This document shows positions 11,447 through 43,881 of a DNA stretch of 64,000 nt, in pieces. How positions within the stretch are numbered: position 1 is the first letter of the stretch; each line of letters begins with the position of its first letter. The position numbers were made by a program, and so were the translations under genes. Below the pieces are notes generated by a model, which was not told the origin of the DNA, did not search any database, and saw nothing but the letters and a program-made list of their open reading frames with translations. The stretch is from Salinicola avicenniae (lineage in GTDB: Bacteria > Pseudomonadota > Gammaproteobacteria > Pseudomonadales > Halomonadaceae): positions 124,001 through 188,000 of the forward strand of contig NZ_JAKQZC010000006.1 of assembly GCF_023736115.1 (NCBI RefSeq), given 5' to 3'.

Positions 11447-11672
11447 CACAACCGTCTTCCACTTCCCCGTAAAAGCCTGAAAATACAACGATCAATCGAT
11501 AAAAAACACGCCAAATGGTTATGACAAAAACCAGTAAAAAACCTTTCAAATCAGTAATTTTTACAATTTTGTAAGAGTTGCTAAGTCAATTTCACGCGCC
11601 CTAACATCCGCTCACTCGGGTTCTGATATCGCTGCTAATTCGGCACGAACCCGCCTGATTATGGAGGGTGTT

Positions 11673-23613: not shown

Positions 23614-24369
23614 TCACGCATCGAAAAACACCCGCAGCACATGATCCAGGTGGACCTCCATGGCGTGCCGCGCGGCATCCGGGTCGCGGCGCTCGATCGC
23701 GTCGAGAATGCGCTGGTGATCATGCTGTGACTGGCGCGGCATGTCGGTTTCCATGAACAGCTCCTGCAGCCGGCGAAACATCATGCCGTACTGATGGCCA
23801 AGCAGATGCTTGATCGTCATGGCGTAGGCCGCGTTACCCGAGGCTTCGGCAATGCGAATGTGCAGTAGCCGGTCGCCGGCCTGGTTGCGCCCGCCCTGCA
23901 GATTGTCCTCGACGTTACGCGCATAGGCGGCGCGCATGGCAACGAGATCCGCTTCACTGGCATTGGTCGCCGCCAGGGCTGCCGTTTCCGGCTCCAGATA
24001 GCGCCGTGCCTGCAGCAGCGAAAACGGCGGAATTTCCTGGTCCAGATCGAGCTCGATCTCACTATCGAATTCGGGGTCGAGCGACCACGGCGCCTTGCGA
24101 CGCGCTTCGCTCATCACCGAGCTGCCGACGGCTTCGTCGCGTTCCAGCACCAGCACGCCGTGTCCGACACGCACCTCCACCTGCCCCACCACTTCCAGCG
24201 CGATCAGGGCTTCCCGCACCGAGGCACGGCTGACACCGAGCTGCTGCGCCAGATCGCGCTCGGGTGGCAACAGCGTACCGGGCGGGAATTCTCCCTGCTG
24301 GATCAAGACCAGCAACTGATCGGCAATCTGGCGATAGAGCCGCTGGGCACGAATGGACTGAATCGGCAT
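23614..24369 (-). CDS. FadR/GntR-family regulator with FCD domain
   Basis: Transcription factor of 251 residues: N-terminal winged helix (about 10-75, with ERDLAQQLGVSRASVREALIALE) and a C-terminal FCD ligand domain (about 95-240). The FCD domain carries His residues in LLHIRIAEASGN and DHQRILDAIERRDPDAARHAMEVHL, which form a metal/carboxylate site in this family. AGGAGG precedes the ATG. Divergent from the deoxyfuconate dehydrogenase operon and very likely its repressor, with a sugar acid or its keto derivative as effector. Confidence 0.92.
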   Translation of the reverse strand: MPIQSIRAQRLYRQIADQLLVLIQQGEFPPGTLLPPERDLAQQLGVSRASVREALIALEVVGQVEVRVGHGVLVLERDEAVGSSVMSEARRKAPWSLDPEFDSEIELDLDQEIPPFSLLQARRYLEPETAALAATNASEADLVAMRAAYARNVEDNLQGGRNQAGDRLLHIRIAEASGNAAYAMTIKHLLGHQYGMMFRRLQELFMETDMPRQSQHDHQRILDAIERRDPDAARHAMEVHLDHVLRVFFDA

Positions 24370-24577
24370 CTATCGACCTCCTGATACGAGTCAAAGATTA
24401 GACATAAGTCGAAAAAATCGGCGAATTCATGGGATTTCGTCACGATATTAGACGTTTGGCGATTTGCGGCCCGCTACGGCGAAGCCTAATACTCGGACCA
24501 AAGGTCAGGCCTTTAGACATTAGAACCAAAAACCGGGGTGCCTTGCCAGCATGCCGCGATTCAGGAGACGACTGCTC
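24370..24577. promoter_or_regulatory. Divergent control region with three TAGAC motifs
   Basis: 208 bases between the FadR regulator and the fuconate operon. TAGAC occurs at 24399 (TAGAC-ATAA-GTCGA, near-palindrome), 24449 (TAGAC-GTTT-GGCGA) and 24514 (TAGAC-ATTA-GAACC), always preceded by T. A separate palindrome GACCAAAGGTC lies at 24496-24506. Together they look like multiple operators for the divergent regulator. Confidence 0.5.
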
Positions 24578-25318
24578 ATGCGACTCGCCGACAAGACCGC
24601 GCTGATCACCGCCGCCGGACAGGGGATCGGTCGCGCTTCCGCCGAGCGGTTCCTGGCGGAGGGCGCTCGAGTCATCGCCACCGATGTCGACCCTGACAAG
24701 CTGGCGGGTCTGAAAGACGCCGAGTGCTATGCCCTGGATGTCACCGATGCCGCAGCCGTCGCCTCGCTGATCGAATCGCTGCCGCCGCTGGACATTCTGT
24801 TCAACTGTGCCGGTACGGTGCCCGCCGGGTCGATTCTCGACTGCGACGATGCACAGTGGACCTTTGCGCACCGCCTCAACGTCGATGCCATGTTCTACAC
24901 CATTCGCGCCGCCCTGCCGGCCATGCTGGCCAACAGCGGCGGCAACATCATCAACATGTCTTCACTCGCCTCGAGCGTCAAAGGCGTGGTCAACCGCTGC
25001 GCCTACGGCACCTCCAAGGCTGCCGTCATCGGCCTGACCAAATCCGTCGCCGCCGACTTCATGACCCGGGGCATTCGCTGCAACGCGATCTGTCCCGGCA
25101 CCGTCGACTCCCCCTCCCTGCGCGAGCGGGTCGCGGAACAGGCGCGACAACAGGGGCGTACCGCCGACGACGTCTTCGCCGATTTTGTCGCCCGACAACC
25201 GATGGGGCGGCTCGGCAAGGTAGAAGAGATCGCTGCACTGGCCGCGCATCTGGCCAGCGACGACGCCGGTTTTATCACGGGGACCGTGCAGATGATCGAT
25301 GGCGGCTGGTCCAACTGA
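24578..25318 (+). CDS. 2-keto-3-deoxy-L-fuconate dehydrogenase (SDR)
   Basis: NAD+-dependent SDR of 246 residues that oxidises 2-keto-3-deoxy-L-fuconate to 2,4-diketo-3-deoxy-L-fuconate in the non-phosphorylating L-fucose pathway. Seen: TAAGQGIGRA at 11-20, NCAG at 76-79, Ser129, Tyr143 and Lys147 (CAYGTSKAAVIGLTKSVAADF), and a C-terminal TGTVQMIDGGWSN. It resembles the Xanthomonas campestris enzyme and BDH2-type SDRs. I chose ATG 24578, which has AGGAGA upstream. First gene of the operon; the downstream hydrolase supports the assignment. Confidence 0.85.
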   Translation: MRLADKTALITAAGQGIGRASAERFLAEGARVIATDVDPDKLAGLKDAECYALDVTDAAAVASLIESLPPLDILFNCAGTVPAGSILDCDDAQWTFAHRLNVDAMFYTIRAALPAMLANSGGNIINMSSLASSVKGVVNRCAYGTSKAAVIGLTKSVAADFMTRGIRCNAICPGTVDSPSLRERVAEQARQQGRTADDVFADFVARQPMGRLGKVEEIAALAAHLASDDAGFITGTVQMIDGGWSN

Positions 25319-25383
25319 TCCCCATCACGAGCGCCGATTGCGCGTCATCCCCCCTCACTTACTGCTACAGGAAAGGAAATCGC

Positions 25384-26226
25384 ATGAAACTGCTGCGCCA
25401 TGGCCCCAAGGGGCAGGAAAAACCCGGCATTGTCGATGCCAACGGTGTCGTCCGTGACCTCTCCGGTGAAATCGACGATATCGCCGGTGAGACACTGTCG
25501 GACGAGCACCTCGCCGCGCTGGCCCAGGTCGATCTCGCCAACCTGCCGGCAGTCGCTTCCGATACCCGCCTCGGCCCCTGCGTCGGTCGCGTCGGCAAGT
25601 TCATCTGCATTGGCCTCAACTACTCCGATCACGCCGCAGAGACCGGCTCGGACGTGCCGGCCGAGCCGGTCATCTTCAACAAGTGGACCAGCGCCATCTG
25701 CGGCCCCGACGACGATATCGAGATCCCGCGCGGCTCGACCAAGACCGACTGGGAAGTCGAACTGGGCGTGGTCATCGGCAAGGGCGGGCGCTATATCGAG
25801 GAAGCCGATGCCATGAGCCATGTGGCCGGCTTCTGCGTGGTCAACGACGTCTCCGAACGCGAGTTCCAGCTCGAACGCAGTGGCACCTGGGACAAGGGCA
25901 AGGGCTGCGACACCTTCGGCCCGCTCGGCCCATGGCTGGTCACCCGCGACGAGATCGAGGACCCGCACGATCTGGACATGTGGCTCGAGGTCGACGGCAA
26001 GCGCTATCAGGACGGCTCCACGCGCACCATGGTGTACCAGGTTCCCCATCTCGTCTCGTACCTGAGCCAGTTCATGAGCCTGCAGCCGGGCGACGTCATC
26101 TCCACCGGTACACCACCGGGCGTCGGCATGGGGCAGAACCCGAAAATCTTCCTCAAGCCGGGACAGGTCATGCGCCTGGGTATCGAGGGGCTCGGCGAAC
26201 AGCAGCAGCGCTGCATCGAGAGCTGA
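25384..26226 (+). CDS. 2,4-diketo-3-deoxy-L-fuconate hydrolase (FAH family)
   Basis: Fumarylacetoacetate-hydrolase-fold enzyme, 280 residues, expected to split 2,4-diketo-3-deoxy-L-fuconate into pyruvate and L-lactate. FAH features: FICIGLNYSDHA, PVIFNKWTSA, metal-binding acids in DWEVELGVVIG and GFCVVNDVSERE, and the C-terminal GDVISTGTPPGVGMG. AAAGGA precedes ATG 25384. It is 65 bases after the SDR gene, the same order as in known fuconate clusters. Confidence 0.86.
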   Translation: MKLLRHGPKGQEKPGIVDANGVVRDLSGEIDDIAGETLSDEHLAALAQVDLANLPAVASDTRLGPCVGRVGKFICIGLNYSDHAAETGSDVPAEPVIFNKWTSAICGPDDDIEIPRGSTKTDWEVELGVVIGKGGRYIEEADAMSHVAGFCVVNDVSEREFQLERSGTWDKGKGCDTFGPLGPWLVTRDEIEDPHDLDMWLEVDGKRYQDGSTRTMVYQVPHLVSYLSQFMSLQPGDVISTGTPPGVGMGQNPKIFLKPGQVMRLGIEGLGEQQQRCIES

Positions 26227-26355
26227 AGCGGAGACCTCCCAGCGACAGGCGGAATCCAGCCCCCCTGCCGAAGCGGATCGGCGGGGCGAGGCCTCCGCCA
26301 ATTGGTCAGGCCTTTGAACCGATAGCGCCGTACGCCGGCCCCAGGAGAAGCCAAT

Positions 26356-27417
26356 ATGCAAGTCGTCGTCTGTTCCCAGCCCGGCGAGATGAATCTCATC
26401 GAGCGGCCGACGCCCGACTGTGCGCCGGGTGAAGCCCGCGTCGCCATTCGCCGCATCGGCATCTGCGGCACCGATATCCATGCCTTCGGTGGCAACCAGC
26501 CCTACTTCGTTTACCCGCGGGTACTGGGGCATGAGCTCGGCGGCGAGGTGGTCGCCACGGCTGACGATGTCGACTCCGGTCTTGTTGGCCAGTCGGTCTA
26601 CGTCATTCCCTACCTGCACTGCGGCGAGTGCCGCGCCTGCCGCCAGGGCCGTACCAACTGCTGCCAGTCGCTCGAGGTGATCGGCGTACATCGCGACGGC
26701 GGCATGGCAGAGACGCTGAACGTGCCCGCCACGCATCTGATCCCGGTACCGGCGCTGTCACCGGATCAGCTGGCGCTGGTCGAATGTCAAGCGATCGGCG
26801 CCCACGCGGTTCGTCGCGCCCAGGTTGCCGCGGCCGAACTGGTGGTCGTGGTCGGCGCCGGGCCGATCGGCATGGGCGTGCTGCAGGTGGCGAAAAGCCG
26901 CGGCGCGCGGGTGGCGATGGTCGACACCAACCGTGAACGCCTGGCGCTGTGTCGCGATGCCTTCGGCGCGGATGCGGTATGGCACGCCGTCGAGGAAGAC
27001 GTGGTCGCCGAGATTGTGGCGATGAACGATGGCGCTCTCGCCGACGTCGTCTTCGACGCCACCGGCAATCCCGAGGCGATGAATCGTGGCTTCGACTTTG
27101 CCGGTCACGGCGGTCGCTATGTGCTGGTGAGCGTGGTCAAGGCGGATATCACCTTCAATGACCCGGACTTCCACAAGAAGGAGCTCACCCTGCTCGGCAG
27201 CCGCAACGCCACCAAGGAGGATTTCGAGACGGTGACACGGCTGATGGCAAGTGGCGAACTGCAGACTACCCCGCTTATCACCCACCGCGGCACGCTCGCG
27301 GACCTGCCGACCTTGATGCCCCAGTGGTGCGACCCCGCCAGCGGCGTGGTCAAGGCCATGGTGACACTCGACGGCACAGACACATTCGAAGGGGAACCCG
27401 CGGGAGCCGGCGCATGA
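26356..27417 (+). CDS. Zn-dependent L-galactonate 5-dehydrogenase-like MDR enzyme
   Basis: Medium-chain Zn alcohol dehydrogenase, 353 residues. Catalytic Zn ligands Cys37 (GICGTDIHAFGGNQP), His59 and Glu60; structural Zn Cys89/92/95/103; NAD-binding GAGPIG at 167-172. The segments GGNQPYFVYPRVLGHE, CRQGRTNCC, VIGVHRDGG and FHKKELTLLGSRNAT closely recall E. coli LgoD (YjjN), which oxidises L-galactonate to D-tagaturonate. Its place directly before uxaA and a uxaB-like gene supports that role. Stop overlaps the uxaA start. Confidence 0.82.
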   Translation: MQVVVCSQPGEMNLIERPTPDCAPGEARVAIRRIGICGTDIHAFGGNQPYFVYPRVLGHELGGEVVATADDVDSGLVGQSVYVIPYLHCGECRACRQGRTNCCQSLEVIGVHRDGGMAETLNVPATHLIPVPALSPDQLALVECQAIGAHAVRRAQVAAAELVVVVGAGPIGMGVLQVAKSRGARVAMVDTNRERLALCRDAFGADAVWHAVEEDVVAEIVAMNDGALADVVFDATGNPEAMNRGFDFAGHGGRYVLVSVVKADITFNDPDFHKKELTLLGSRNATKEDFETVTRLMASGELQTTPLITHRGTLADLPTLMPQWCDPASGVVKAMVTLDGTDTFEGEPAGAGA

Positions 27418-29090
27418 GCGGCACGACCTCCCCTACCGGCAACGACGCTATCGCGACCGATGGCCTCGCACGCGCCGCCCTGCGCATCCACCCCGACGAC
27501 GACGTGGCGGTTGCCCTGACCGACCTGCCCGCCGGCCGCGAGGTGGCGGTCGACCGACAGACGTTCACGCTGGTCGATAACGTGCGTGCCAAGCACAAGT
27601 TCGCGCTGGTCGACTTCGCGCCGGGCGACACCGTCACCATGTATGGCGTGGTGGTCGGTAAAGCGACACAGCCGATCGTCGCCGGCGGCGCCCTCACCAC
27701 GGACAACCTGGCCCATGCCACGGGTGGCGACAAAGCCATGCCTGGCACCAAGGACTGGACGCCGCCGGAGACGTCGCGCTTTCAGGCGACGACCTTCGAA
27801 GGGTTCCACCGCCCCGATGGCAGCGTTGGCACCGCCAACGTCTGGCTGGTGATTCCGCTGGTCTTCTGTGAGAACCGCAATATCGAGGTGCTGCGCCAGT
27901 GTGTCAGCGATGCCCTAGGCGATGACCCTTATCGCGACTACAAACGCATGGCGCGGCAGATGCTGGATGGCACCGATAACCCGGCAAGTGACGGCGACGA
28001 GGCACCGTCTGACGTCCCGCGGCGCTTCCCCAACGTCGACGGCGTGCGCTTTCTCAATCACACCCTCGGTTGCGGCGGCACCGACGACGACGCCCAGGCG
28101 CTGTGTCAGTTGCTCGCGGGCTATGTCTGTCATCCCAATGTCGCCGGCGCGACGGTGTTGAGCCTAGGGTGTCAGAAAGCGCAGATTCGCATGCTCAAGT
28201 CGGCCATTGCCGAACGCGATCCCCACGCGCTGAAAACGGTGGACTATTTCGACCAACAGTCCTCGCCCAGCGAAGAGGCACTGATACGAGGCGCCCTGCG
28301 CTCGATCTTCGACGGTCTGGCGGCCGCCGATCGGATCACCCGCCAGCCGGCACCGCTGTCGAAGCTCATCCTTGGCGTCGAATGCGGCGGCTCGGACGGC
28401 TTTTCGGGGATCTCGGCCAATCCGCTGGTCGGTGCGGTCGTCGACCGTCTGGTAGCCCTTGGCGGCAGCGGTATCCTCGCGGAATTCCCCGAGCTCTGCG
28501 GCGTCGAGCACGAGCTGATTGCCCGCTGCACCGAGACCGCGATCGCCGAGCGCTTCAGCCAGTTGATCGAATCGTATCAGCGTCATGCCGAGGCGGTAGG
28601 CGCCGACTTCGCCATGAACCCCTCGCCCGGCAATATCCGCGATGGCCTGATCACCGATGCGATGAAATCCGCCGGGGCCGCCAAGAAAGGCGGCGATAGC
28701 CCGGTCGTCGACGTGCTCGACTACACCGAACCACAGCGTCGCCTGGGCCTGAGCCTGCTCTGCACGCCCGGCAACGATGTCGAATCGACCACCGCCCTGG
28801 CCGGATCCGGCGCCAATCTGATCCTCTTCACGACCGGGCTGGGCACGCCGACCGGCAACCCGGTGGCGCCGGTGCTCAAGATCGCCAGCAATAGCGAGTT
28901 GGCGAACCGCATGCGAGACATCATCGACTTCGATGCTGGCCCCATCGTGCGCGGCGAGCGCGCCATCGGCGAGCTGGCCGATGACCTGCTGATGCTGTGT
29001 CTCGAGACCGCGTCCGGGCGCTATCGATCATGCGCCCAGCGACTCTCGCAACACGACTTCATCCCCTGGAAACGTGGGGTCTCTCTATGA
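27414..29090 (+). CDS. uxaA: Altronate dehydratase (UxaA family)
   Basis: D-altronate to 2-keto-3-deoxy-D-gluconate, 558 residues. The N-terminal SAF domain (about 20-95, with RAKHKFALVDFAPGD) is joined to the UxaA core (NTLGCGGTDDD with Cys220, GVECGGSDGFSG, SPGN, TTGLGTPTGNPVAPV), a one-protein form. The start ATG overlaps the previous stop (ATGA) and the last codon overlaps the uxaB-like start, so translation is coupled. A related galactarate dehydratase activity is less likely given the neighbours. Confidence 0.9.
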   Translation: MSGTTSPTGNDAIATDGLARAALRIHPDDDVAVALTDLPAGREVAVDRQTFTLVDNVRAKHKFALVDFAPGDTVTMYGVVVGKATQPIVAGGALTTDNLAHATGGDKAMPGTKDWTPPETSRFQATTFEGFHRPDGSVGTANVWLVIPLVFCENRNIEVLRQCVSDALGDDPYRDYKRMARQMLDGTDNPASDGDEAPSDVPRRFPNVDGVRFLNHTLGCGGTDDDAQALCQLLAGYVCHPNVAGATVLSLGCQKAQIRMLKSAIAERDPHALKTVDYFDQQSSPSEEALIRGALRSIFDGLAAADRITRQPAPLSKLILGVECGGSDGFSGISANPLVGAVVDRLVALGGSGILAEFPELCGVEHELIARCTETAIAERFSQLIESYQRHAEAVGADFAMNPSPGNIRDGLITDAMKSAGAAKKGGDSPVVDVLDYTEPQRRLGLSLLCTPGNDVESTTALAGSGANLILFTTGLGTPTGNPVAPVLKIASNSELANRMRDIIDFDAGPIVRGERAIGELADDLLMLCLETASGRYRSCAQRLSQHDFIPWKRGVSL

Positions 29091-29131
29091 AGAACGCCGC
29101 CATGAAGAACGTCGCCATGACGAGCGCCACC
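29087..29131 (+). repeat. 15-bp tandem repeat carrying successive ATG codons
   Basis: ATGAAGAACGCCGCC, ATGAAGAACGTCGCC and ATGACGAGCGCCACC in direct succession, then ATGACATCT. Each unit starts with an in-frame ATG, giving the peptide MKNAA-MKNVA-MTSAT-MTS. Confidence 0.9.
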
Positions 29132-30277
29132 ATGACATCTGACCTTTCCGACTTCCCGTCGGGCGCATCGATCATCCAGTTCGGCACCGGCCGCTTTCTG
29201 CTCGCCCACGTCGACGCACTGGTGTCGGCCTCGCTCGAGGCCGGCACCAGCGATCAGCGCATTCTGGTGGTCCAGACCTCGCCGCGCGAGGAAGGTAAGC
29301 GCAAGGCGCGCGCGCTGGCCCGACAGTGTCGCTATCCGGTGCGTGTTCGCGGTCGGCGCGACGGCGTGACAATCGACCGGGAGGAAACGATCGCCAGCAT
29401 TGCCGGCTGCCTGATCGCCGACGAGCAGTGGCGCACGCTGGAGCGACACGTAGTCGAGCGGGCGCGAATCGTGGTCTCCAATACCGCGGACAATGGCTAT
29501 GAGATCGGCGATGACTCCAGTCTGGCCGCGGTGCCGGCGAGCTTCCCGGGCAAGCTGACGCGGCTGCTTCGTGCGCGCTTCACGGCCGGCAAGGATGGCC
29601 TCACGATCCTGCCGTGCGAGCTGATCGACCGCAACGCCGATCAGCTGCGCTCACTGGTTGTCGCCATGGCCCGTCGCGACGGCGGGGAAACAGCCGAGAC
29701 CGCCGACTTCGTCGCCTGGCTGGAACAGCGATGCGTCTGGGCCAGCACGCTGGTCGACCGCATCGTTTCGGCACCGCTCGACCCTTTGGGAGCCGTGGCC
29801 GAACCCTACGCCCTATGGGCAATCGAGCAACGCCCCGGGATGGCCGTGCCGTGCGTTCATCCCGACGTTCAGGTTGTCGACGACCTCACGCCGATGGCGA
29901 CCTGCAAGCTGCACATCCTCAATCTGGCACATACCTTCCTGGTGCATCTCTGGCAGCAGCAGGGGCACCCCGTCGCGCTGGTCCGTGAGGCCATGGAGAC
30001 GCCGTCGCTGCGCGACCCGCTGACAGCGGTACTCGAGACGGAGGTGCTGCCGACGCTGGCCGCCGAGCTGCCGCAGACACAGCTCGAAACCTATCTGGCC
30101 GCGACACTCGAACGTTTCGCCAACCCGTATCTGGACCACCGCATCGCCGATATCGCCCAGAACCACGACGCCAAGCTGATACGCCGCCTGCGCCCAGTGG
30201 TGGAAAAAGCGCGTCTGCTGGACCGCGCCACGCCGGCGCTCCAGGCCGCACTCGACGGCTCGAGCTCATCGAACTGA
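29087..30277 (+). CDS. Tagaturonate reductase-like (mannitol dehydrogenase family)
   Basis: NADH-linked reductase expected to convert D-tagaturonate to D-altronate between the LgoD-like enzyme and UxaA. The N-terminal Rossmann part is SIIQFGTGRFLLAHVD; VSNTADNGYEI and the catalytic CKLHILNLAHTFLVH segment identify the mannitol-dehydrogenase/UxaB family. With 396 residues it is notably shorter than E. coli UxaB (483). The N-terminus has four in-frame ATGs in a 15-bp repeat (29087-29131), so the true start is open; 29087 overlaps the uxaA stop. Confidence 0.82.
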   Translation: MKNAAMKNVAMTSATMTSDLSDFPSGASIIQFGTGRFLLAHVDALVSASLEAGTSDQRILVVQTSPREEGKRKARALARQCRYPVRVRGRRDGVTIDREETIASIAGCLIADEQWRTLERHVVERARIVVSNTADNGYEIGDDSSLAAVPASFPGKLTRLLRARFTAGKDGLTILPCELIDRNADQLRSLVVAMARRDGGETAETADFVAWLEQRCVWASTLVDRIVSAPLDPLGAVAEPYALWAIEQRPGMAVPCVHPDVQVVDDLTPMATCKLHILNLAHTFLVHLWQQQGHPVALVREAMETPSLRDPLTAVLETEVLPTLAAELPQTQLETYLAATLERFANPYLDHRIADIAQNHDAKLIRRLRPVVEKARLLDRATPALQAALDGSSSSN

Positions 30278-30351
30278 TGGCAGAGACGCAAACGACAGAT
30301 CGATGCTGTTCACACGCCACACGATAATCAGGACGAAACAGGAGCACGCCC

Positions 30352-31341
30352 ATGACAACCCAACGATGGATCCAAGTGACCGCCTCTCTCACCCTGGCGA
30401 GCTTGAGCGCCCTGGCCGGCAGCGCGCAGGCCGCCACCGAGATTCGAGTCGCCTACGGCAACCAGCCGAGTGAACCGGTCGACGTGGCCGTCAAGGCCTG
30501 GGCAGACCGCGTGGCCGAAGAAAGCGACGGCGAATTGACACTCAAGGCCTTTCCCGCCAGCCAGCTCGGCGGGGAGACCGAGGTGATGGAGCAGGCCCGC
30601 TTCGGTTCGCCGCTGATCACCATCACCGCCTACTCCAACTTCATGAGTTCGGTGCCGGACCTGGCGGTGCTCGACGCGCCCTATCTCGCCGATGACTTCG
30701 ACAGCAAGCTCAAGGTCTTCGATTCCGACTGGTTCGCTGAACAGGAGAGCAAGGTCGAGGCGTCCGGCTATCACATCGTGATACCCGATACGGTCTACGG
30801 CGTTCGCCATCTGCTTTCCCGCGACCCGGTCACCACGCCCGACGATCTCGCGGGCGTCAAGATACGCGTGCAGAACTCGCCGATGTACGTCGCCGCCATC
30901 GAAGCCATGGGTGCCGTACCGACCCCCATGTCGCTGGGCGATGTCTATCCGGCGCTGGCCCAAGGCCTGGTCGACGGCGTCGAGAATCCGCTGCCGGTAC
31001 TCTACGGCGGCAAGTTCCAAGAGGTCGTGAAACAGCTCAACCTGACCGCGCACATGCATACGGTGGCTCCGTTCGTGACCGGCGAAACGTTCTGGTCGCA
31101 GTTGAGCCCGGCGGAGCAACAGATCCTGACCGAGACCGGCGAAGAGATGGCCGATAACCTGCGCGGGCTTGTCGAACAGGCGACGGAAACCTCGCTGCAG
31201 CAGCTCAAGGATGCCGGTGTCGAGGTCAACGAGGTCGATACCGCGCCGTTTCGCGAACGCGCCGCCGCCCAGATTCCGGCAGCCTTCCCGCAGTGGAGCG
31301 ACGGTCTCTACGAGCAGGTCAGCCAGATCATGACGCCGTGA
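30352..31341 (+). CDS. dctP: TRAP transporter solute-binding protein (DctP)
   Basis: Periplasmic binding protein of a TRAP carrier, 329 residues with a signal peptide (about 1-25, ending GSAQA). DctP features: the loop IRVQNSPMYVAAIEAMGAVPTPMSLGDVYPALAQGLVDGVENP includes the Arg that binds the ligand carboxylate. AGGAG before ATG. The operon context (fuconate, galactonate and altronate enzymes) suggests sugar acids such as uronates or aldonates as ligands. Confidence 0.93.
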   Translation: MTTQRWIQVTASLTLASLSALAGSAQAATEIRVAYGNQPSEPVDVAVKAWADRVAEESDGELTLKAFPASQLGGETEVMEQARFGSPLITITAYSNFMSSVPDLAVLDAPYLADDFDSKLKVFDSDWFAEQESKVEASGYHIVIPDTVYGVRHLLSRDPVTTPDDLAGVKIRVQNSPMYVAAIEAMGAVPTPMSLGDVYPALAQGLVDGVENPLPVLYGGKFQEVVKQLNLTAHMHTVAPFVTGETFWSQLSPAEQQILTETGEEMADNLRGLVEQATETSLQQLKDAGVEVNEVDTAPFRERAAAQIPAAFPQWSDGLYEQVSQIMTP

Positions 31342-31446
31342 TGACGTGCCTGCGCGACACGCTCGCGCAGGCTTCTATCGCGCTCCCGGCGGCAACGACT
31401 CGCGCTGTCGGGGCAGCGGCATCGCGTCCACGTCAAAGGATTGCCC

Positions 31447-31968
31447 ATGAAGAAAACGCTGTTCAAGACACTCGACCGACTGATGCGGCTCGATGAGGCA
31501 GTCGCCAGCCTGGCGCTGTTCGGTCTGTTCGTGGTCGCCATCGCCAACGTCATCATGCGCTACCTGTTTGCCTCACCGCTCGCGTGGAGCGAGGAGATAC
31601 TGCAGCTGCTGCTGGTCTGGGCGACATTCCTCGGCGCCAGTGCGCTGGTGCGCCGCAATGAGCACGTGTTGATCGGCCTGCTTGGCGACCGGCTGCCACC
31701 GAGGCTGGCACGCTGGAACACCCGAATTTTCAACGTCGGCATCGTCATGCTGTGTGCCTCGGCCATGCTCGTCTGGGGCCTGGAACTGCTGCCGTTCTCG
31801 CGCTTTCGCAGCACACCGATGCTGCAGATCCCTTATTACTGGATTCACGTCGCTATTCCGATCAGCGCCGTCATCATGCTCTATCACGGGCTGGTGCGTC
31901 TGATCGACGGCGACCGCGCTCTCTCCCCGCCGGCCGCGGAGACTTCCGCCGCCAAGGCCAGCGAGTGA
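31447..31968 (+). CDS. dctQ: TRAP transporter small permease (DctQ)
   Basis: Four-TM small membrane subunit, 173 residues, with LAWSEEILQLLLVWATFLGAS, the DctQ signature. A TTG lies six bases upstream, but ATG 31447 has AAAGGA at proper spacing. Its stop codon lies in the first copy of a 15-bp duplication whose second copy holds the dctM ribosome binding site and start. Confidence 0.9.
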   Translation: MKKTLFKTLDRLMRLDEAVASLALFGLFVVAIANVIMRYLFASPLAWSEEILQLLLVWATFLGASALVRRNEHVLIGLLGDRLPPRLARWNTRIFNVGIVMLCASAMLVWGLELLPFSRFRSTPMLQIPYYWIHVAIPISAVIMLYHGLVRLIDGDRALSPPAAETSAAKASE

Positions 31969-31992
31969 CCTCAACAGGAGTGACCTGAATGG
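31963..31992 (+). repeat. 15-bp tandem duplication joining dctQ stop and dctM start
   Basis: GAGTGACCTCAACAG (31963-31977) is followed by GAGTGACCTGAATGG (31978-31992). The first copy holds the dctQ TGA. The junction creates AGGAG, and the second copy holds the dctM ATG. Confidence 0.8.
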
Positions 31993-33272
31993 CTGTCGGA
32001 TTCGCGCTCGCCGCCCTCTTCATTCTTTTCTGCCTTGGCACGCCGGTCGCCTTCGCCCTGTTCGCCTCCAGCCTGGTCTATTTCCTGGTTGGCGCCGACC
32101 AACCGATGGTGATGCTGATCCAGCGCCTCGCCGGCGGTCTGGAGTCGATCTCGCTACTGGCGATTCCGTTCTTCATCATGGCCGGTGTCTTCATGAATCA
32201 CTCCGGCATCACCGAGCAACTGCTCAAGCTCGCCGAATTGATGACTCGCCGCCTGCACGGCGGGCTTGCCCAGGCCAATGTCCTGCTGAGCACCTTCATG
32301 GGCGGGCTTTCCGGTTCCAACATCGCCGACGCCGCCATGAATGCCAAGTTGCTGGTGCCGAGCATGAGTCGCGCCGGCTACCCCAAGGCCTTTTCCAGCG
32401 CGATCACCGCCTCGTCGTCGCTGATCACCTCGACCATCCCCCCCGGCATCGCGCTGATCGTCTATGGCTACGTCAACAATGTCTCCATCGGCCGGCTGTT
32501 CCTGGCCGGCGTCGTCCCCGGCGTGCTGATGGCCGTGGCGCTGATGATCATGGTCTCGCGCCAGTGTCGCCGTCGCGGCTACCAGCCCCCGCGCCGCGAG
32601 CGCGTGACCCGCCACGAGTGGATCAGCGTGACCCGTGCCGGAATCATCGCCCTGCTGCTGCCGGTGGTGGTGATCGGCGGTATCCGTATCGGTATCTTCA
32701 CGCCGACCGAAGCGGGCGCGATGGCCGTGCTCTATGCGCTGATCGTGGGGCTGTTCGTCTACCGAGAAATGGGACTCGGCAGCGTTGCCATCGCTACGCG
32801 GGAGTCCCTCATGGCCTCGGTCAACGTGCTCTTCATCATCGCCGTCGCATCGGGCTTCGCGCGCGTGCTGACCTGGGAGCAGATTCCCCAACAGATCGCC
32901 CTGCTGCTGTCGTCGGAGGTCGGCAGCGCCGTGGCGTTTCTGCTGATCGCCAATCTGCTGCTGCTGGTTTTGGGGATGTTCCTCGAGGGCAACGCCATCC
33001 TGATCGTGCTTTCGCCGCTGTTAGCCCCGGTCGCCGCACAGTTCGGCATCGATCCGGTGCATTTCGGCATCATCTTCATCCTCAATGCCTCCACCGGCAC
33101 CGTGACGCCCCCGCTGGGCACGGTCATGTTTACGACCTGTTCAATCACCGGCGTCTCGATACCGGATTTCATTCGCGCGGTCATGCCTTACTGGCTGCTG
33201 CTCGTCGCGCTGTTGCTGGTAGTGACCTTCGTACCGGCACTGTCACTGACGCTGCCCGGCTGGGTGTTCTAG
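31989..33272 (+). CDS. dctM: TRAP transporter large permease (DctM)
   Basis: Large membrane subunit (about 12 segments, 427 residues) that forms the Na+-coupled transport path with DctQ. Family motifs: LAIPFFIMAGVFMNHSGI, FMGGLSGSNIADAAMNAK, STIPPGIALIVYGY and ASTGTVTPPLGTVMF. Last gene of the fuconate/galactonate operon. Confidence 0.94.
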   Translation: MAVGFALAALFILFCLGTPVAFALFASSLVYFLVGADQPMVMLIQRLAGGLESISLLAIPFFIMAGVFMNHSGITEQLLKLAELMTRRLHGGLAQANVLLSTFMGGLSGSNIADAAMNAKLLVPSMSRAGYPKAFSSAITASSSLITSTIPPGIALIVYGYVNNVSIGRLFLAGVVPGVLMAVALMIMVSRQCRRRGYQPPRRERVTRHEWISVTRAGIIALLLPVVVIGGIRIGIFTPTEAGAMAVLYALIVGLFVYREMGLGSVAIATRESLMASVNVLFIIAVASGFARVLTWEQIPQQIALLLSSEVGSAVAFLLIANLLLLVLGMFLEGNAILIVLSPLLAPVAAQFGIDPVHFGIIFILNASTGTVTPPLGTVMFTTCSITGVSIPDFIRAVMPYWLLLVALLLVVTFVPALSLTLPGWVF

Positions 33273-33410: not shown

Positions 33411-34166
33411 GTGAAGGACGCACCGCCACCGCATTCCCGACAACGCATTAGCGTCGCCGAGGCACTGGCCAGTGATATCTTCGCCGGACGCTATCCGCCG
33501 GGGGCCTTTGTCCCTCGCGAGATCGACCTGTGCGAGCAGTTCTCGCTCAATCGCTCGGCGGTGCGCAGCGACCTGCGTCGATTGGTGGATGCCGGCATCA
33601 TCGAGCGCATCTCCGGCTATGGATCGCGCGTGCGGGACTACGCCGAGTGGAACATCCTCGATCCGCAGGTCACCGCCTGGATGACCCGTTTCGCCACGCC
33701 GAATCCCGGCATCCAGCGCGAGATTCTCGCCTTCCGCCTGGACGTCGAGCCCTACGTGGCGATGACCGCGGCCAAACGCGCCACGGCACACGACCTGGTC
33801 GCTATCGAGGAAGCCTTCGACGGCATGGGCCAGGAACTGCGCGACCCGGGCGGCCGCCTGCACAGCGAGCACGATGTCGCCTTTCACGTCGCCATCTTCA
33901 AGGCCACCCACAACATCGTCTGGACCCAGCTTTCGCATATCCTGCAGCCGTCGATTCACCTACTGGTCGAGACATCCAATGTCAGCGCCAGCGACCCGGA
34001 AGAGAGCCTGGAGCGTCACCGGCAGCTGATGGAGTGCATCCGCACCCGTCGGCCACGAGACGCCTTCTTCGCCTCGGTCGCGGTACTCGAGGGCACGGCC
34101 GCTGCGCTGGGCCTCGAGATGCCGGAAACGCTATTGGGCGAGATACCGGAAACGGCACGCGGCTGA
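33411..34166 (+). CDS. FadR/GntR-family regulator with FCD domain
   Basis: Transcription factor of 251 residues, GTG start. Winged helix (about 12-75) with EIDLCEQFSLNRSAVRSDLRRLVDAGIIERI; C-terminal FCD domain with FHVAIFKATHNIVWTQL and HRQLMECIRTRRPRDAF. The ribosome binding site is weak. It follows dctM by 138 bases and precedes an SDR gene in the same direction. A candidate operator lies just upstream, so it may regulate itself and the neighbouring sugar-acid genes. Confidence 0.9.
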   Translation: MKDAPPPHSRQRISVAEALASDIFAGRYPPGAFVPREIDLCEQFSLNRSAVRSDLRRLVDAGIIERISGYGSRVRDYAEWNILDPQVTAWMTRFATPNPGIQREILAFRLDVEPYVAMTAAKRATAHDLVAIEEAFDGMGQELRDPGGRLHSEHDVAFHVAIFKATHNIVWTQLSHILQPSIHLLVETSNVSASDPEESLERHRQLMECIRTRRPRDAFFASVAVLEGTAAALGLEMPETLLGEIPETARG

Positions 34167-34194
34167 CCCCAGGCGCCGGCGAGGCTAGACGATC

Positions 34195-34257
34195 ATCGAC
34201 CAAGGCGACACGAATATCGACCAAGGCGATACGAACATCCACCAAGGAGAGCGTCAT
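34195..34257 (+). repeat. 21-bp tandem repeat ending at an SDR start codon
   Basis: Three copies at 34195, 34216 and 34237. Core ATCGACCAAGGCGA in copies 1 and 2 becomes ATCCACCAAGGAGA in copy 3. The ribosome binding site AAGGAGA and the start of the SDR gene lie in copy 3; the earlier copies hold AAGGCGA at the same place. Confidence 0.9.
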
Positions 34258-35044
34258 GGATCTGGGAATTCGCGGCCGCTGGGCCGTCGTCTGCGCGGCC
34301 AGCCAAGGCCTGGGCAAGGGATGCGCAATAGCGCTGGCGCAAGAGGGCGTCAACCTGGTCATCAACTCGCGGCGGGCCGAGTCCCTGGACGCCGTCGCCA
34401 CCGAGCTGCGTGAGTTGAATACCGGGATCGAGGTTCGTACGGTGGCCGGTGATATCGGCGACCCCGTGGTGCAGAAAGCGGTGCTGGCCGCAGCGCCGCA
34501 GGTCGATATTCTCGTCAACAACAACGGCGGGCCACCGCCGGGCGATTTTCGCGACTGGTCACGCGAGCACTGGATCGCCGCCGTGGACGGCAATATGCTC
34601 ACGCCGATCGCCCTGATTCAGGCCTGCGTCGACGGCATGGCCGAACGCGGCTTCGGCCGCATCGTCAATATCACTTCTTCCGCCGTCAAGGCACCGATCG
34701 ACGTGCTCGGGCTCTCCAACGGCGCCCGCAGCGGGCTGACCGGCTTCGTCGCCGGCACTGCCCGCCAGTCGAGCCTGGCCAGCCGCAACGTCACCCTCAA
34801 CAATCTGCTGCCAGGTAGCTTCGATACCCAACGCCTGCGCGGCAATATCGAACGGGCGGCCAGCCAGCGCGGGCTAGACGCCGACGATTTGGCTCAAGCC
34901 CGTGCGGCGGCGATACCCGCCGGCCGCTTCGGCACATCCGAAGAGTTCGGGGCCTTCTGCGCCTTTCTCTGCAGCCAGCAGGCCGGCTACCTGACCGGAC
35001 AGAACGTGCTGCTTGATGGGGGCGCCTACCCGGGGACTTTTTAG
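34256..35044 (+). CDS. SDR-like oxidoreductase lacking the YxxxK motif
   Basis: 262 residues with the SDR Rossmann fold (CAASQGLGKG at 13-22, NNNGG at 88-92). Ser141/142 is in place, but the expected Tyr and Lys are Ser154 and Arg158 (LSNGARSG). This matches a known BKR-like SDR subgroup with an incomplete catalytic tetrad. The unusual NNNGGPPPGDF segment is also typical of it. Function unknown; its neighbourhood suggests a sugar-acid substrate or a ligand-sensing role. The ribosome binding site is provided by the third copy of a tandem repeat. Confidence 0.85.
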   Translation: MDLGIRGRWAVVCAASQGLGKGCAIALAQEGVNLVINSRRAESLDAVATELRELNTGIEVRTVAGDIGDPVVQKAVLAAAPQVDILVNNNGGPPPGDFRDWSREHWIAAVDGNMLTPIALIQACVDGMAERGFGRIVNITSSAVKAPIDVLGLSNGARSGLTGFVAGTARQSSLASRNVTLNNLLPGSFDTQRLRGNIERAASQRGLDADDLAQARAAAIPAGRFGTSEEFGAFCAFLCSQQAGYLTGQNVLLDGGAYPGTF

Positions 35045-35081
35045 GACGCCCAAAGCCGCGTTTAGGACGCCCGAAGCCACG
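35040..35081. repeat. 21-bp tandem duplication over the SDR stop codon
   Basis: Copies at 35040-35060 and 35061-35081 share TTTAGGACGCCC and agree at 19 of 21 positions. The first contains the TAG stop of the SDR gene. An inverted copy GGGCGTCC lies at 35097-35104. Confidence 0.88.
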
Positions 35082-35104
35082 GCGCTGTCTATACCAGGGC
35101 GTCC
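35065..35104. terminator. Stem-loop between convergent SDR and xylD genes
   Basis: GGACGCCC (35065-35072) can pair with GGGCGTCC (35097-35104), with TTT/AAA extending the stem past one mismatch. It sits between two convergent genes and may act as a shared terminator, though there is no long T-tract. Confidence 0.4.
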
Positions 35105-35175
35105 GAAACTACGCCGTTATGCTGTCCCAGGCGCCTGATGCCGCCCTTGGGCTTTGGTGACGGCGTTCTCGTGGC

Positions 35176-36975
35176 TCAGTGATTGTCCCGCGGCAGATCC
35201 CAGGCGATGGCACGGTACTTGGTCGCCGGCGCCAGCGTCATGCCGCGGTCCAGCTGTTCGACCATCAAGCGCTGAATCTCCTGCCACGGTGTCTGGTGAT
35301 CGCGGTAGGGATAGCCCCCGTTGGCTTCGAGCTTGGCGCGTCTTGCCGCCAGTTCCTCGTCATCGATCAGCAGTTTGGCTTCGCCGCGTTTGAGATCGAT
35401 ACGAAGACGATCGCCGGTCTCGAGCAGCGCCAGTGTGCCGCCGGTTGCTGCTTCCGGCGAGGCGTTGAGGATCGACGGCGAACCGGAAGTGCCCGACTGA
35501 CGCCCGTCACCCAGACACGGCAGTGACTCGATGCCGCGTTTGAGCAGCGCCTCCGGCGGCTGCATATTGACCACTTCCGCCCCGCCCGGATGCCCCACCG
35601 GCCCGGCGCCACGCATGACCAGAATCGTGTTCTCGTCGATCTCGAGCGCTGGATCGTCGATGCGAGCGTGGTAATCCTCCGAACCATCGAACACGGCAAC
35701 CTTGCCTTCGAACGCCTCCGGATCATCCGGATTGGAGAGATAGCGACGTCGGAAATCCTCCGAGATCACGCTGGTCTTCATCAGCGCTGAATCGAACAGG
35801 TTACCCTTCAGGTTGAGAAAACCCGCCGACTCGACCAGCGGGTCGGCATAGCGGCGAATGACGTCGTCATCCTGGGTTTCCCGGCCAAAGCAGTTGTCCT
35901 GCAGCGAGCGTCCGTTGACGGTCAGCGCATCGCCGTGAAGTCGTCCGGCCGCCAGCAGTTCATGGACCACTGCCGGGACACCGCCGGCACGGAAAAACTC
36001 CTCGCCGAGATAGGCACCCGCCGGCATCACGTTGGCCAGCAGCGGAATGTCGTGGCCAAGGCGCTGCCAGTCGTCGTTGGTGAGTTCGATGCCGGCGTGG
36101 CGCGCGATCGCATTGATATGCACCGGCGCATTGCTCGAGCCACCCAGGGCGGAGCAGACGACGACCGCGTTCTCGAACGCTTCCCGGGTCAAAATGCGGC
36201 TCGGACGAATATCTTCCCAGACCATCTCGACGATGCGCGCACCGGTGGCGTAGGCGACCATCGGTCGCTCCTTGTAGGGCGCCGGAATCATCGCCGAGCC
36301 GGGCAGGCTCATGCCCAATGCTTCGGCCATCGAATTCATCGTCGAGGCCGTGCCCATGGTGTTGCAGTGCCCCACCGAGGGCGCCGAATCGGCGATCCGT
36401 GCCAGGAAGGTGGGGTAGTCGATCTCGCCGGTGGCCAGGCGCTTGCGCAGCTCCCAGACGATAGTGCCGGAGCCGACCCGCTCCTTGCCGCGCCAACCGT
36501 TGAGCATCGGCCCGCCGGAGAGCACGATCGCGGGAATATCCGCCGTCGCGGCGGCCATCAGACACGCCGGTGTGGTCTTGTCGCAGCCGGTGGTCAACAC
36601 GACGCCGTCGAGCGGATAGCCGTGCAGCACCTCGACCAGGCCCAGATAGGCCAGATTGCGATCCAGTGCGGCCGTCGGCCGGCGCACGTTCTCGTGGATC
36701 GGGTGCAGCGGAAATTCGAAAGGCACGCCACCGGCGGCACGAATCCCCGCCTTGGTCCGTTCGACCAGGTCGAGGTGATGCCGGTTGCACGGCGTCAGAT
36801 CCGAGCCGGACTGGGCGATACCGATGATCGGCTTGCCGGAAGAGAGCTCCTCTAGCGTGATGCCGTAGTTCATGTAGCGCTCGAGGCAGAGCGCCGTGGT
36901 GCCGGCATGCTCGGGATTGTCGAACCACCAGCGCGAGCGCAGGCGCTCGGGCGTGACGCGGGGATGATCGCTCAT
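35176..36975 (-). CDS. xylD: D-xylonate dehydratase (IlvD/EDD family)
   Basis: Fe-S dehydratase of 599 residues converting D-xylonate to 2-keto-3-deoxy-D-xylonate. Cluster cysteines Cys63 ([12 protein letters not shown]), Cys131 ([10 protein letters not shown]) and Cys204 ([12 protein letters not shown]) fall at nearly the same positions as in Caulobacter Xyl[19 protein letters not shown] and [16 protein letters not shown] are also shared with that subgroup and differ from dihydroxyacid dehydratase IlvD. L-arabinonate is a possible alternative substrate. Last gene of the dctP-gguC-xylD operon. I chose ATG 36975 (MSDHP) over an in-frame ATG eight codons upstream. Confidence 0.87.
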
Positions 36976-37043
36976 GATGCGCTTCCGGATTGCTTTCACG
37001 TGTCGTCGTCGAATACGGGGGCCAGATGGGCGACAGCGCCGCT

Positions 37044-38036
37044 CTAGAGCGCCGTGGCCGCCGAATAGCCGAAGTCCGACTCGCTCCCCAGCGGGTTGCG
37101 CAGCGGCCGCCCCAACGCTGGCAGGTCGATCTCGTAGCGGTCGCCCGGTTCGACGACGATCTTGTCGGCGAAACTCAGGGTGGCGGTGCCGAAGAAATGG
37201 ACGTGCACATCACCGGGGCGACGAAAGTTGCGGTACTTGAAGTGGTGATGCTCGAGGTTCGCCAGGCTATGTGCCATGTTGGCCTCGCCGGTCAGGAACG
37301 GCTTCTCCCACAACGTACGGCCATCGCGCACGATTCGACTGGTACCTTCGAGGTTCGCGGGCAGCTCGCCGACGAACAGTTCCGGCCCGAAGCTGCAGGC
37401 GCGCAGTTTGGAGTGCGCCAGCCACAGGTAGTTGAAGCGTTCGGTAACGTGGTCGGAAAACTCGTTGCCGATCGCGTAACCGACCCGCCACGGCGTGCCG
37501 TCTCCGCCGATCACGTAGAGCCCGGCCAGCTCCGGCTCTTCGCCGGCGTCCTGCGCAAAGGTTGGAGACGGGATCTCGGTTTCCGGCGCGACCACGCAGT
37601 CGCCGTCCCCCTTGTAGAACCATTCCGGCTGTGGCCCGACCTCGCCCGCCTTCGGCTTGCCGGCTTCCACGCCCATGCGGAACATGCGCATCGAATCGGT
37701 CAACTCGCTCTCGTCGATCTTGTCGGTGGCATGCATGGCAGATCGCGTATCGGCGCTGCCGAGGTGCGTCAGCCCGGTGCCGGTGACCAGACAGTGCGCG
37801 GGATCGGGATGCGTCATCGGCGGTAGCAGGCGGCGTTCTTCGACGAGCTGCGCGTAATCGAGACGCGTCTCGGTCAGCGCCGCCTCGACAACGGCCGTTA
37901 ACGATGTGCCCTCGGCGATGGCACGTCTGGCCAGGCCATAGACGCCCTCGTCGCCTTCGACGACCTGGACTTCGGTATCGCTCACGACACGGGCGACGGT
38001 CAGCCTGTCGTCGTTCAGGCATTGAATCAGGCGCAT
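37044..38036 (-). CDS. GguC/AraD1-family protein (FAH superfamily)
   Basis: 330-residue FAH-fold protein of the GguC/AraD1 type found in pentose-acid gene clusters. Seen: [64 protein letters not shown]-like [12 protein letters not shown] near the end. Likely acts on a 2-keto-3-deoxy-pentonate (dehydratase or related lyase). It is distinct from the XylX-type protein at 43.9-45.1 kb. AAGGAGAG precedes the ATG. Sits 68 bases upstream of xylD on the same strand. Confidence 0.8.
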
Positions 38037-38174
38037 GCCTCTCTCCTTTCTCTGTATCGGGTTTTCACTGCGATTTTGTGAGCCAATTCGGCACCGAGCG
38101 GTTCGAGTGCCGGTGCCGCTGGCCGGATCTCCAGTACGGTTCACGCTCGCCCGACCTGAGGCCGGGCGCCTCGA

Positions 38175-39218
38175 TCATTCGCCGGCGTCCAGCAGGCCGC
38201 GCGATTGCAGAAACGCGACCGCGGAGTCGTAGACCTGCTGCGTCTGGGCGTTGCGACCGGCCCACTCCTGCCACTCCTGACGCGCCGCTTCACGGAAGCG
38301 CTTGCGCTCCTCGGGCGAGAGGTCGATCGGATGCACGTCCGGGTCTGCCTGCAGCTTGGCCAAGGTCTCGAGATCCTGGACCTTCAGACGCGCCACCAGG
38401 TCGTAAGCCATGGCATCGAAGCCGGTCTCGAGGATGCTCTTGAGATCTTCCGGCAGGCCGTCCCAGATCTGCTTGTTGAGCGAGATCGCGATCATCGGCA
38501 TCGAATGGAAGCCGGGATAGAGCGGATACGGGGCGAAGGCGTGCAGGCCCATGGCATCGTTGTTGGAAAGCACGGTGGAGTCGGCCGCGTCGATCACGCC
38601 CTTTTCCAGCGCGGTATAGACTTCCGAGCCCGGCAGGTTGACCGGGGAGGCACCCAGCCGTTCGAAGATGTTGTAGACCATGCCCTGCGGCGCGCGGATC
38701 TTGAGCCCCTGAAAGTCCTCCATCGAGTCGATCTCGCGCGTCGAGGGAATCGACTCCAGCGGGAACGTCCCGGCGGCGATCAGGTGGGCACCGTAGGGTT
38801 CGGTGATCTCGTTGTAGATCGCCTCCCCACCGCCCTGATTCATGTACTCGAGAAAGTCGTAGGGATCACTCCAGGCACCAACGAGATTGCCCATCATGCC
38901 GTAGGCAGGATTCTGGCCCGAAAAGTAGCTCGGATCGGTCATATGTCCCTGCAGGATGCCGGATGAAACCGCCTGCAGCGTTTCCGTGGGGCCGACGACG
39001 GCATTGATCGGCAGCAGCTCGATCGAGACACGCCCGCCAGTCATGGTCTCGATACGTTCGAGCCACGCCTGCTTGATCTTGAAGCTCGGCTCGCCCGAGG
39101 TCTCGGACGCCTGAAAGGTCCATTCGTACTCGGCAGCCTGTGCACTGAGCGTGGCTAGCATCAGTGCGCAGGCTGCCGTCGCGGCGGCGATTCCGGTCGT
39201 GCGTGTCATGGCGTTCAT
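38175..39218 (-). CDS. Orphan TRAP solute-binding protein (DctP family)
   Basis: Periplasmic binding protein, 347 residues with a signal peptide (about 1-28, ending LSAQA). Family features: LPINAVVGPTETLQAVSSGILQ, the ligand-binding Arg region GLKIRAPQGMVYNIFERLGASPVNLPGSEVYTALEKGVIDAAD. It heads the dctP-gguC-xylD operon without dctQ or dctM beside it. Its membrane partners must be elsewhere or shared with one of the two complete TRAP sets in this window. Context suggests a pentonate ligand. Confidence 0.9.
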   Translation of the reverse strand: MNAMTRTTGIAAATAACALMLATLSAQAAEYEWTFQASETSGEPSFKIKQAWLERIETMTGGRVSIELLPINAVVGPTETLQAVSSGILQGHMTDPSYFSGQNPAYGMMGNLVGAWSDPYDFLEYMNQGGGEAIYNEITEPYGAHLIAAGTFPLESIPSTREIDSMEDFQGLKIRAPQGMVYNIFERLGASPVNLPGSEVYTALEKGVIDAADSTVLSNNDAMGLHAFAPYPLYPGFHSMPMIAISLNKQIWDGLPEDLKSILETGFDAMAYDLVARLKVQDLETLAKLQADPDVHPIDLSPEERKRFREAARQEWQEWAGRNAQTQQVYDSAVAFLQSRGLLDAGE

Positions 39219-39600: not shown

Positions 39601-39705
39601 ACAATACGAATATTGCACTCAATGGTCATAAAACATAGCTTCAGGGAGCGGAAGCAAGACAAGAAAAGCCGGATCGCACCCGACTCATTGCTCTGGAGAT
39701 ACGCC

Positions 39706-40683: not shown

Positions 40684-40709
40684 CGCCAGGCACCGACAGG
40701 AGAAACCCG

Positions 40710-41189: not shown

Positions 41190-41195
41190 TTGCCC

Positions 41196-43765: not shown

Positions 43766-43881
43766 CCCCCTTTCGATCGAGACCTTTCCCTGAATCTCGA
43801 ATCGAGTGAACCGCATACCGCGTCGTCATGCTCTCGGCAGCCTGCCGACGCTCTTTTTCCTTCCTTCGGAGTTCGTTGTCC

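Follow-up and report, generated by a model that had tools for sequence, protein, structure and literature searches.

A probable gene cluster for the import and degradation of L-galactonate and L-fuconate in Salinicola avicenniae

Genes at the locus

The window analyzed here was a 64,000-nucleotide stretch of contig NZ_JAKQZC010000006.1 from Salinicola avicenniae, in whose coordinates all positions are given. Eight intact genes on the + strand at 24578-33272, with a divergent GntR/FCD regulator gene adjoining (23614-24369, - strand; Pfam GntR and FCD), form a cluster that, judging from protein families (assigned by NCBIfam and Pfam) and gene context, quite probably imports and degrades two sugar acids, L-galactonate and L-fuconate. 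In order, they encode a short-chain dehydrogenase/reductase (SDR) predicted to be an L-2-keto-3-deoxyfuconate (KDF) 4-dehydrogenase (24578-25318), an FAH-family hydrolase probably acting on 2,4-diketo-3-deoxy-L-fuconate (25384-26226), a zinc-dependent medium-chain dehydrogenase/reductase (MDR) of the LgoD type, a predicted L-galactonate 5-dehydrogenase (26356-27417), a UxaA/GarD-family dehydratase putatively for D-altronate and possibly also L-fuconate (27414-29090), a short UxaB-like (tagaturonate) reductase of 396 amino acids (29087-30277), and a tripartite ATP-independent periplasmic (TRAP) importer consisting of the solute-binding protein DctP (30352-31341), the small permease DctQ (31447-31968; Pfam DctQ), and the large permease DctM (31989-33272; Pfam DctM, with TIGR00786 above cut-off).

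A sequence-only reading of the same DNA had named the genes of the fuconate, galactonate, and TRAP modules, and these were all present and intact where it had placed them. Its gene order was right in content and wrong in one detail, as the UxaA-like gene precedes the UxaB-like gene. The overlapping ATGA junctions it described were found at two of seven junctions (27414-27417 and 29087-29090), the other five being gaps of 65, 129, 74, 105, and 20 bp.

The L-fuconate half

The SDR and the assayed L-KDF 4-dehydrogenase (L-KDFDH) of Herbaspirillum huttiense (8Y4J) shared 63% identity over 246 aligned positions (155 identical). Twelve of the 13 active site positions checked were identical, the remaining one changing from I to V, and the substrate-binding Arg148, Arg192, Arg214, and Trp252 were kept together with the catalytic Ser137, Tyr151, and Lys155 (7/7 identical; the residue numbers carry an offset of 5 between paper and PDB chain, taken from the alignment). 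The H. huttiense enzyme is reported to prefer L-KDF 5.3-fold over L-2-keto-3-deoxygalactonate (L-KDGal), 12-fold over D-2-keto-3-deoxypentonate (D-KDP), and 105-fold over D-2-keto-3-deoxygluconate (D-KDGlu) (PMC11199699). The best PDB match of the FAH protein was 8gsr, an L-2,4-diketo-3-deoxyrhamnonate hydrolase.

No enolase-type dehydratase was found within the cluster, and one was encoded elsewhere in the window (46304-47623, + strand). Its PDB matches were ENOSF1 4a35 (3.5e-175), 4ip4 (1.2e-172), and the L-fuconate dehydratases 1yey (2.8e-168) and 2hne (3e-168), the match to the latter two spanning residues 4-433 of 439, with ENOSF1 and the unassigned 4ip4 scoring slightly higher. The product was assigned as a predicted L-fuconate dehydratase, FucD, of the enolase superfamily, from its matches to solved L-fuconate dehydratases. 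The gene lay 13 kb downstream of the cluster with a second TRAP importer (47737-50652, + strand; DctP 47737-48822 and DctM 49396-50652 by Pfam) and a GlcD-like FAD oxidase as neighbors. In a relative (G237, locus L034), fucD (C1:75976-77280), the second TRAP importer, and the FAD oxidase were directly upstream of the regulator and the cluster, so that their placement 13 kb apart in the window appears to stem from a rearrangement. The GlcD-like FAD oxidase itself (50665-52110), which follows the fucD-linked TRAP genes, could oxidize a 2-hydroxy acid from the fuconate route.

Relatives of the second TRAP importer occurred beside the cluster in L034 and between the FAH gene and lgoD in L058. At L058, the relative of the fucD-linked binding protein was 65% identical, and no fucD was found in that genome. 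This arrangement ties the second importer to the fuconate half, and it is probably part of the same metabolism.

The L-galactonate half

The MDR was 47.8% identical to Escherichia coli LgoD. A tree of 95 MDR proteins grouped it with LgoD, apart from the gulonate-type paralogues, across a 100/100 split at which long branches meet; by this tree the organism is a halomonad near Salinicola and Chromohalobacter. The identity and the grouping support an LgoD-type enzyme with predicted NAD+-dependent oxidation of L-galactonate. The UxaB-like protein was 33.5% identical to E. coli UxaB and kept the K-x4-N-x2-H motif, presumably the catalytic motif of UxaB. Matches to it at E ≤ 1e-20 were found in 15 of 390 genomes of the order, five of them (S. 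avicenniae included) at ≥45% identity. The UxaA-like protein comprised SAF and GD_AH domains (Pfam), and four cysteine columns were conserved in all 32 aligned rows, an iron-binding role having been proposed for the family cysteines (PMC6336799). The UxaA-like proteins of this locus formed a 100/100 clade of 16 of the 32 rows, including those of L036 and L091, on a stem of 3.5 changes per column.

Contextual evidence for the galactonate half was best in a genome of another family of the order (G337, locus L036), with LgoD, UxaB-like, and UxaA-like types at 57, 45, and 60% identity. Nearby genes encoded a PfkB kinase, an amidohydrolase, and an aldo-keto reductase for which the top five PDB matches all bear the name L-galactose dehydrogenase. 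SDR and FAH had no match in the 20 kb stretch, and the set reads as a stand-alone L-galactose route.

For the lower part of the route, the S. avicenniae genome contained an Eda-type aldolase gene (C6:526564), and a search with E. coli KdgK gave two weak matches, L134 and L135. The former (C3:706293) is the candidate 2-keto-3-deoxygluconate (KDG) kinase; its best PDB match was named only "PfkB" and the next was a 2-keto-3-deoxygluconate kinase. L135 was set aside as nearer to fructokinase. The PfkB kinase of L036, used as a probe, had no match in the S. avicenniae genome in a search run without a positive control.

Transport and regulation

Relatives of the cluster DctP (44-50% identity) occurred near lgoD without SDR or FAH matches in Pasteurellaceae (L109, L119), Vibrio (L117), and Metabacillus (L093), and together with both SDR and FAH in another Metabacillus locus (L088). 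The DctP was 75% identical to that of the C. sarecensis locus L048, and its closest PDB chains by both sequence and fold were 4o8m and 4ovt, which probably hold L-galactonate and L-fuconate, respectively (predicted structure with a mean predicted local distance difference test score, pLDDT, of 37.5 from the single sequence and 90.7 with an alignment). The TRAP binding protein of Chromohalobacter salexigens is described as binding both L-fuconate and L-galactonate (Leyn et al., 2017, citing Vetting et al., 2015; PMC5507952). Homology and context suggest that the cluster importer takes up L-galactonate and probably L-fuconate.

Regarding the single operon proposed by the sequence-only reading, the same-strand run of genes was borne out and a single transcription unit was doubtful, because an operator-like 12-mer in the 129 bp gap before lgoD (26304-26315, + strand) recurs in the region 5' of the SDR gene (24503-24514, + strand). 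With up to one mismatch allowed, GGTCAGGCCTTT was found twice in the window, both copies exact (24503 and 26304) and each 5' of one half, and one of 100 shuffles reached as many matches. This suggests that SDR-FAH and lgoD-uxaAB-dctPQM are two co-regulated units. With the window counted, a degenerate core lay within 220 bp 5' of the SDR gene in 12 of 16 loci and within the same distance of lgoD in 11 of 17, compared with 28 of 3205 background windows, and an extended form gave 10 of 16 and 11 of 17 compared with 2 of 3205; the core patterns were written after viewing the sites and the loci are related, so that the enrichment is descriptive. FucR sites have been predicted in the Halomonas and C. 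salexigens loci (Leyn et al., 2017; PMC5507952).

The putative regulator, which by its position probably controls the cluster, had ExuR and UxuR as its best NCBIfam models, both below cut-off, and was 32-33% identical to E. coli UxuR and ExuR. A relative at ≥67% was present in 10 of the 14 Halomonadaceae loci examined. A 13-base FCD-type consensus, TTGGTCNGACCAA, was also tried and set aside; with up to three mismatches it had 22 matches compared with 16.7 expected, and 12 of 100 shuffles reached that number.

Proposed pathway and evidence against it

L-galactonate and L-fuconate share the same C2-C5 configuration, and dctPQM would import the former and probably the latter. LgoD would oxidize L-galactonate at C5 to D-tagaturonate, the short UxaB-like protein would reduce this to D-altronate, and the UxaA-like protein would dehydrate D-altronate to KDG, to be finished by a kinase and an Eda-type aldolase encoded elsewhere in the genome. 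L-fuconate would be converted to KDF, chiefly by FucD (46304), the SDR would oxidize KDF at C4, and the FAH enzyme would cleave the product to pyruvate and L-lactate. SDR-FAH and lgoD-uxaAB-dctPQM are probably both under one GntR/FCD regulator acting via the same operator.

Several observations weigh against this pathway. Three enzymes fell short of their family models or clades: the FAH protein scored 420.5 bits with NF053535 (cut-off 500), the UxaB-like protein scored 221 bits with the tagaturonate reductase model NF002969 (cut-off 359), and the UxaA-like protein lay outside the clade of E. coli UxaA, which is among the other 16 rows of the tree. Approximately 100 C-terminal residues were missing in all five short UxaB-like proteins aligned (window included). 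The reductase is filed only as UxaB-like on its score, and its dehydratase partner, on the tree, as a UxaA/GarD-family member, not as a D-altronate dehydratase proper. The KDG kinase candidate scored 164 bits (cut-off 400), making its assignment weak. In L056 and L060, where lgoD is beside SDR and FAH, no UxaA-like gene of this type was found up to 10 kb away (L060 has another UxaA-family gene next to the SDR), and both genomes lack a UxaB-like orthologue altogether. In Flavobacterium, 12 of 14 lgoD loci have an FAH gene and a lactonase nearby and gave no match to UxaA or UxaB in the stretch; LgoD may thus have another role tied to the fuconate route, or another partner or role in Flavobacterium. 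The core motif was absent from the 220 bp 5' of fucD in the two places checked, one core match lying inside fucD at 46453. Furthermore, Xanthomonas campestris FucD is reported to have residual activity on L-galactonate and D-altronate (PMC13406643), and as homologues of FucD and KDFDH accept the L-galactonate series somewhat, the two routes may leak into each other.

Imported acids as the likely starting point

The sequence-only reading had proposed that L-fucose and L-galactose are degraded in parallel. Homology and context support its parallel fuconate and L-galactonate-to-KDG modules with a TRAP importer, and searches of the S. avicenniae genome (assembly rated 99.99% complete) did not support the sugars as their start. 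The highest score for an L-fucose dehydrogenase was 139.8 bits, under the cut-off of 300, which all 14 control genomes likewise failed to reach, and relatives of the L-fucose dehydrogenase of L048 reached ≤36% identity. The search for a fuconolactonase yielded only one PF04909 protein, 23-30% identical to cluster lactonases over parts (two still shorter pieces aside), and that for an L-galactose dehydrogenase gave best relatives of 28-35% and ≤82 bits. Catabolism of L-fucose and L-galactose as sugars was rejected on the absence of these three recognizable entry enzymes from the genome, non-orthologous replacements being possible.

Relatives carry such genes at the corresponding place. In L048 and L050, a lactonase-type amidohydrolase and an SDR lie between the FAH gene and lgoD, followed by genes that by eye partly resemble a sugar ABC transporter. 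The SDR of L048 passed as L-fucose dehydrogenase (411 bits, cut-off 300), its amidohydrolase scored 350 bits with L-fucono-1,5-lactonase (cut-off 400), and its binding protein is similar to those for allose and ribose, with scores below cut-off. A third locus (L033, genome G130) has an SDR match and such a binding protein between FAH and lgoD, the lactonase not having been searched for there. The window has only the 129 bp gap at this position. Since recognizable entry enzymes are lacking here and L-fucose genes occupy exactly this place in two relatives, and in part in a third, the predicted pathway most likely starts from imported acids. This assigns a probable sugar acid pathway in a halophile and corrects its reading from sugars to acids.

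Occurrence in relatives and comparison with known systems

The gene-neighborhood search suggested with the sequence-only reading was run and indicated that the set is not a chance neighborhood. From at least 577 confirmed relatives, 80 named loci were scored, 14 of them from Halomonadaceae (L048-L061), of which 13 had SDR and FAH, 11 the UxaA-like gene, nine the UxaB-like gene, and nine the DctP type. SDR, FAH, LgoD, UxaA-like, UxaB-like, DctP, and DctM occurred together in eight of the 14 (dctQ was not among the queries). G130 and G237 likewise carry the set, the SDR of G130 being cut by the end of the stretch.

Outside this group, 14 Flavobacterium loci (L075 at 8054-12968, L073, L074, L076, L077, L079-L081, L084, L085, L087, L089, L090, and L092) have an LgoD relative beside an SDR and a lactonase-type amidohydrolase, with FAH in 12 and a KDFDH-like SDR in seven; UxaA and UxaB gave no match in these stretches. 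The Bacillaceae loci L088 and L097 carry LgoD, FAH, and two UxaA-family matches, perhaps one dehydratase per acid, with SDR and the DctP type additionally in L088 and UxaB additionally in L097.

The combination had been thought not to be a described system, which is wrong, as Leyn et al. (2017; PMC5507952) reported it in Halomonas HL-48 and HL-93 and in C. salexigens Csal_1738-1731. The window cluster is a further example of this arrangement in related bacteria. The set of COG1028, COG0179, lgoD, uxaA, uxaB or uxaF, and a TRAP importer is the same, UxaA and UxaB corresponding in the window at family level, not by E. coli clade or cut-off. Their functions were assigned by comparative genomics, and the Halomonas and C. 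salexigens TRAP systems are called non-orthologous there (PMC5507952). According to the same source, Halomonas HL-48 has no L-fucose entry steps and uses only L-fuconate (PMC5507952), and the S. avicenniae genome resembles it. It differs from the published loci in having fucD 13 kb away; new here are this downstream fucD, the motif before both halves, and the deep UxaA-like clade apart from E. coli UxaA.

Among more distant systems, the E. coli L-galactonate pathway (LgoD, UxaB, UxaA) shares the proposed reactions, whereas its genes lie in separate places with the symporter LgoT and the window has a TRAP importer, a short UxaB-like protein, and a UxaA-like protein of a distant clade. The non-phosphorylating L-fucose pathway of Xanthomonas and Herbaspirillum has the KDF dehydrogenase, the diketo acid hydrolase, and FucD in common (PMC11199699, PMC6336799, PMC13406643), but S. 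avicenniae lacks a recognized L-fucose dehydrogenase or fuconolactonase. The lgu cluster of Luteolibacter LG18 shares the enzyme-assayed conversion of L-galactonate via D-tagaturonate and D-altronate to KDG; it also serves L-glucose, and fuconate is unmentioned in the available text of that report (PMC12632266). Passages on L-gulonate and L-KDGal in two further reports contain nothing on this locus (PMC5788505, PMC11219438).

Alternative explanations

It is conceivable, although we lean against it, that the UxaA-like protein, as a member of a deep subfamily, dehydrates L-fuconate as well as D-altronate (perhaps also L-galactonate directly), in which case the eight genes would suffice and FucD would be dispensable. 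The C2-C4 configuration is common to D-arabinonate, D-altronate, L-fuconate, and L-galactonate, all of which were substrates of one UxaA/GarD-family enzyme (100, 12, 5.6, and 2.4%, respectively), and from context the same authors assign L-fuconate and L-galactonate to other members of the family; the assayed relative, however, preferred D-arabinonate ~6,700-fold over altronate (PMC6336799). FucD was missing at E ≤ 1e-40 from seven of 19 genomes searched, of which two (G337 and that of L091) lack SDR and FAH in the stretch and five (L051, L055, L057, L058, and L059) have both. All five kept the UxaA-like gene, scored only within ~10 kb of lgoD, compared with nine of 12 with fucD among the 17 halomonad genomes with SDR and FAH (window included), an association that was not significant (one-sided Fisher p 0.32, worked by hand); the exceptions were G364, L056, and L060, with other UxaA-family genes nearby in G364 and L060. 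The UxaB-like orthologue was missing from five of 17 genomes (L052, L055, L056, L059, and L060), and L055 and L059, having neither it nor fucD, hence offer no visible altronate source for their UxaA-like protein. Conversely, L036 and L091 have UxaA-like, LgoD, and UxaB without SDR or FAH in the stretch, which fits altronate alone, and in the fucD-less genomes only FucD was searched for as an alternative dehydratase and the completeness of the named genomes is not shown. A literature search found no paper assigning this UxaA-like subfamily, and the superfamily study of Watanabe et al. (2019) may bear on it. Such a shared dehydratase would bind the two routes into one self-sufficient cluster and explain the halomonads without fucD, and it would give a deep dehydratase subfamily its substrates and show catabolic routes linked physically via common stereochemistry.

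Two further readings are much less likely than parallel routes for L-galactonate and L-fuconate. That the SDR oxidizes KDG from the UxaA-like protein at C4 and FAH cleaves the product to pyruvate and D-glycerate, with no fuconate branch, is very improbable: the 4(S)-hydroxyl is common to KDG and KDF, H. huttiense L-KDFDH does act on D-KDGlu (PMC11199699), and the cluster has no KDG kinase, but the same preference data place D-KDGlu 105-fold below L-KDF (PMC11199699), the Trp packing against the C6 methyl is conserved in the SDR, FucD is encoded in the same window, and L036 has LgoD, UxaB-like, and UxaA-like genes without SDR or FAH and beside a PfkB kinase. Slightly less credence still is given to a galacturonate operon, in which the UxaA/UxaB pair would serve D-galacturonate downstream of UxaC. 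A galacturonate route has no need of LgoD, the DctP type goes with lgoD in other lineages, and E. coli UxaC had no match among the 20 window proteins compared or in the 14 Halomonadaceae loci (the whole genome was not searched), and these points stand against the classical galacturonate role of UxaA and UxaB and the resemblance of the regulator to ExuR.

Other sugar acid loci

Further genes of interest follow the cluster in the window. At 33411-39218, a GntR regulator, an SDR, an IlvD/EDD-family dehydratase (PRK13017), an AraD1 family protein, and a DctP constitute a second sugar acid cluster, possibly for L-arabinonate, and 39613-45057 contained genes for an Ldh_2 dehydrogenase, for the transporters TctC and TctA, and for a protein of 409 amino acids whose FAH match was only borderline (23.8 bits for a cut-off of 23.9). 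A probable L-gulonate pathway, whose logic parallels that of the galactonate half, is encoded elsewhere in the genome at C5:86287-92482 (L040, L009), where a UxuB/UxaB-family reductase and an MDR of the gulonate type accompany a TRAP importer and an enolase-family protein. KDPG-aldolase-family and enolase-family genes at C8:405127-409764 (L003, L012), accompanied by what by eye are a DgoK-like kinase and a TRAP-type permease, form a probable D-galactonate cluster.

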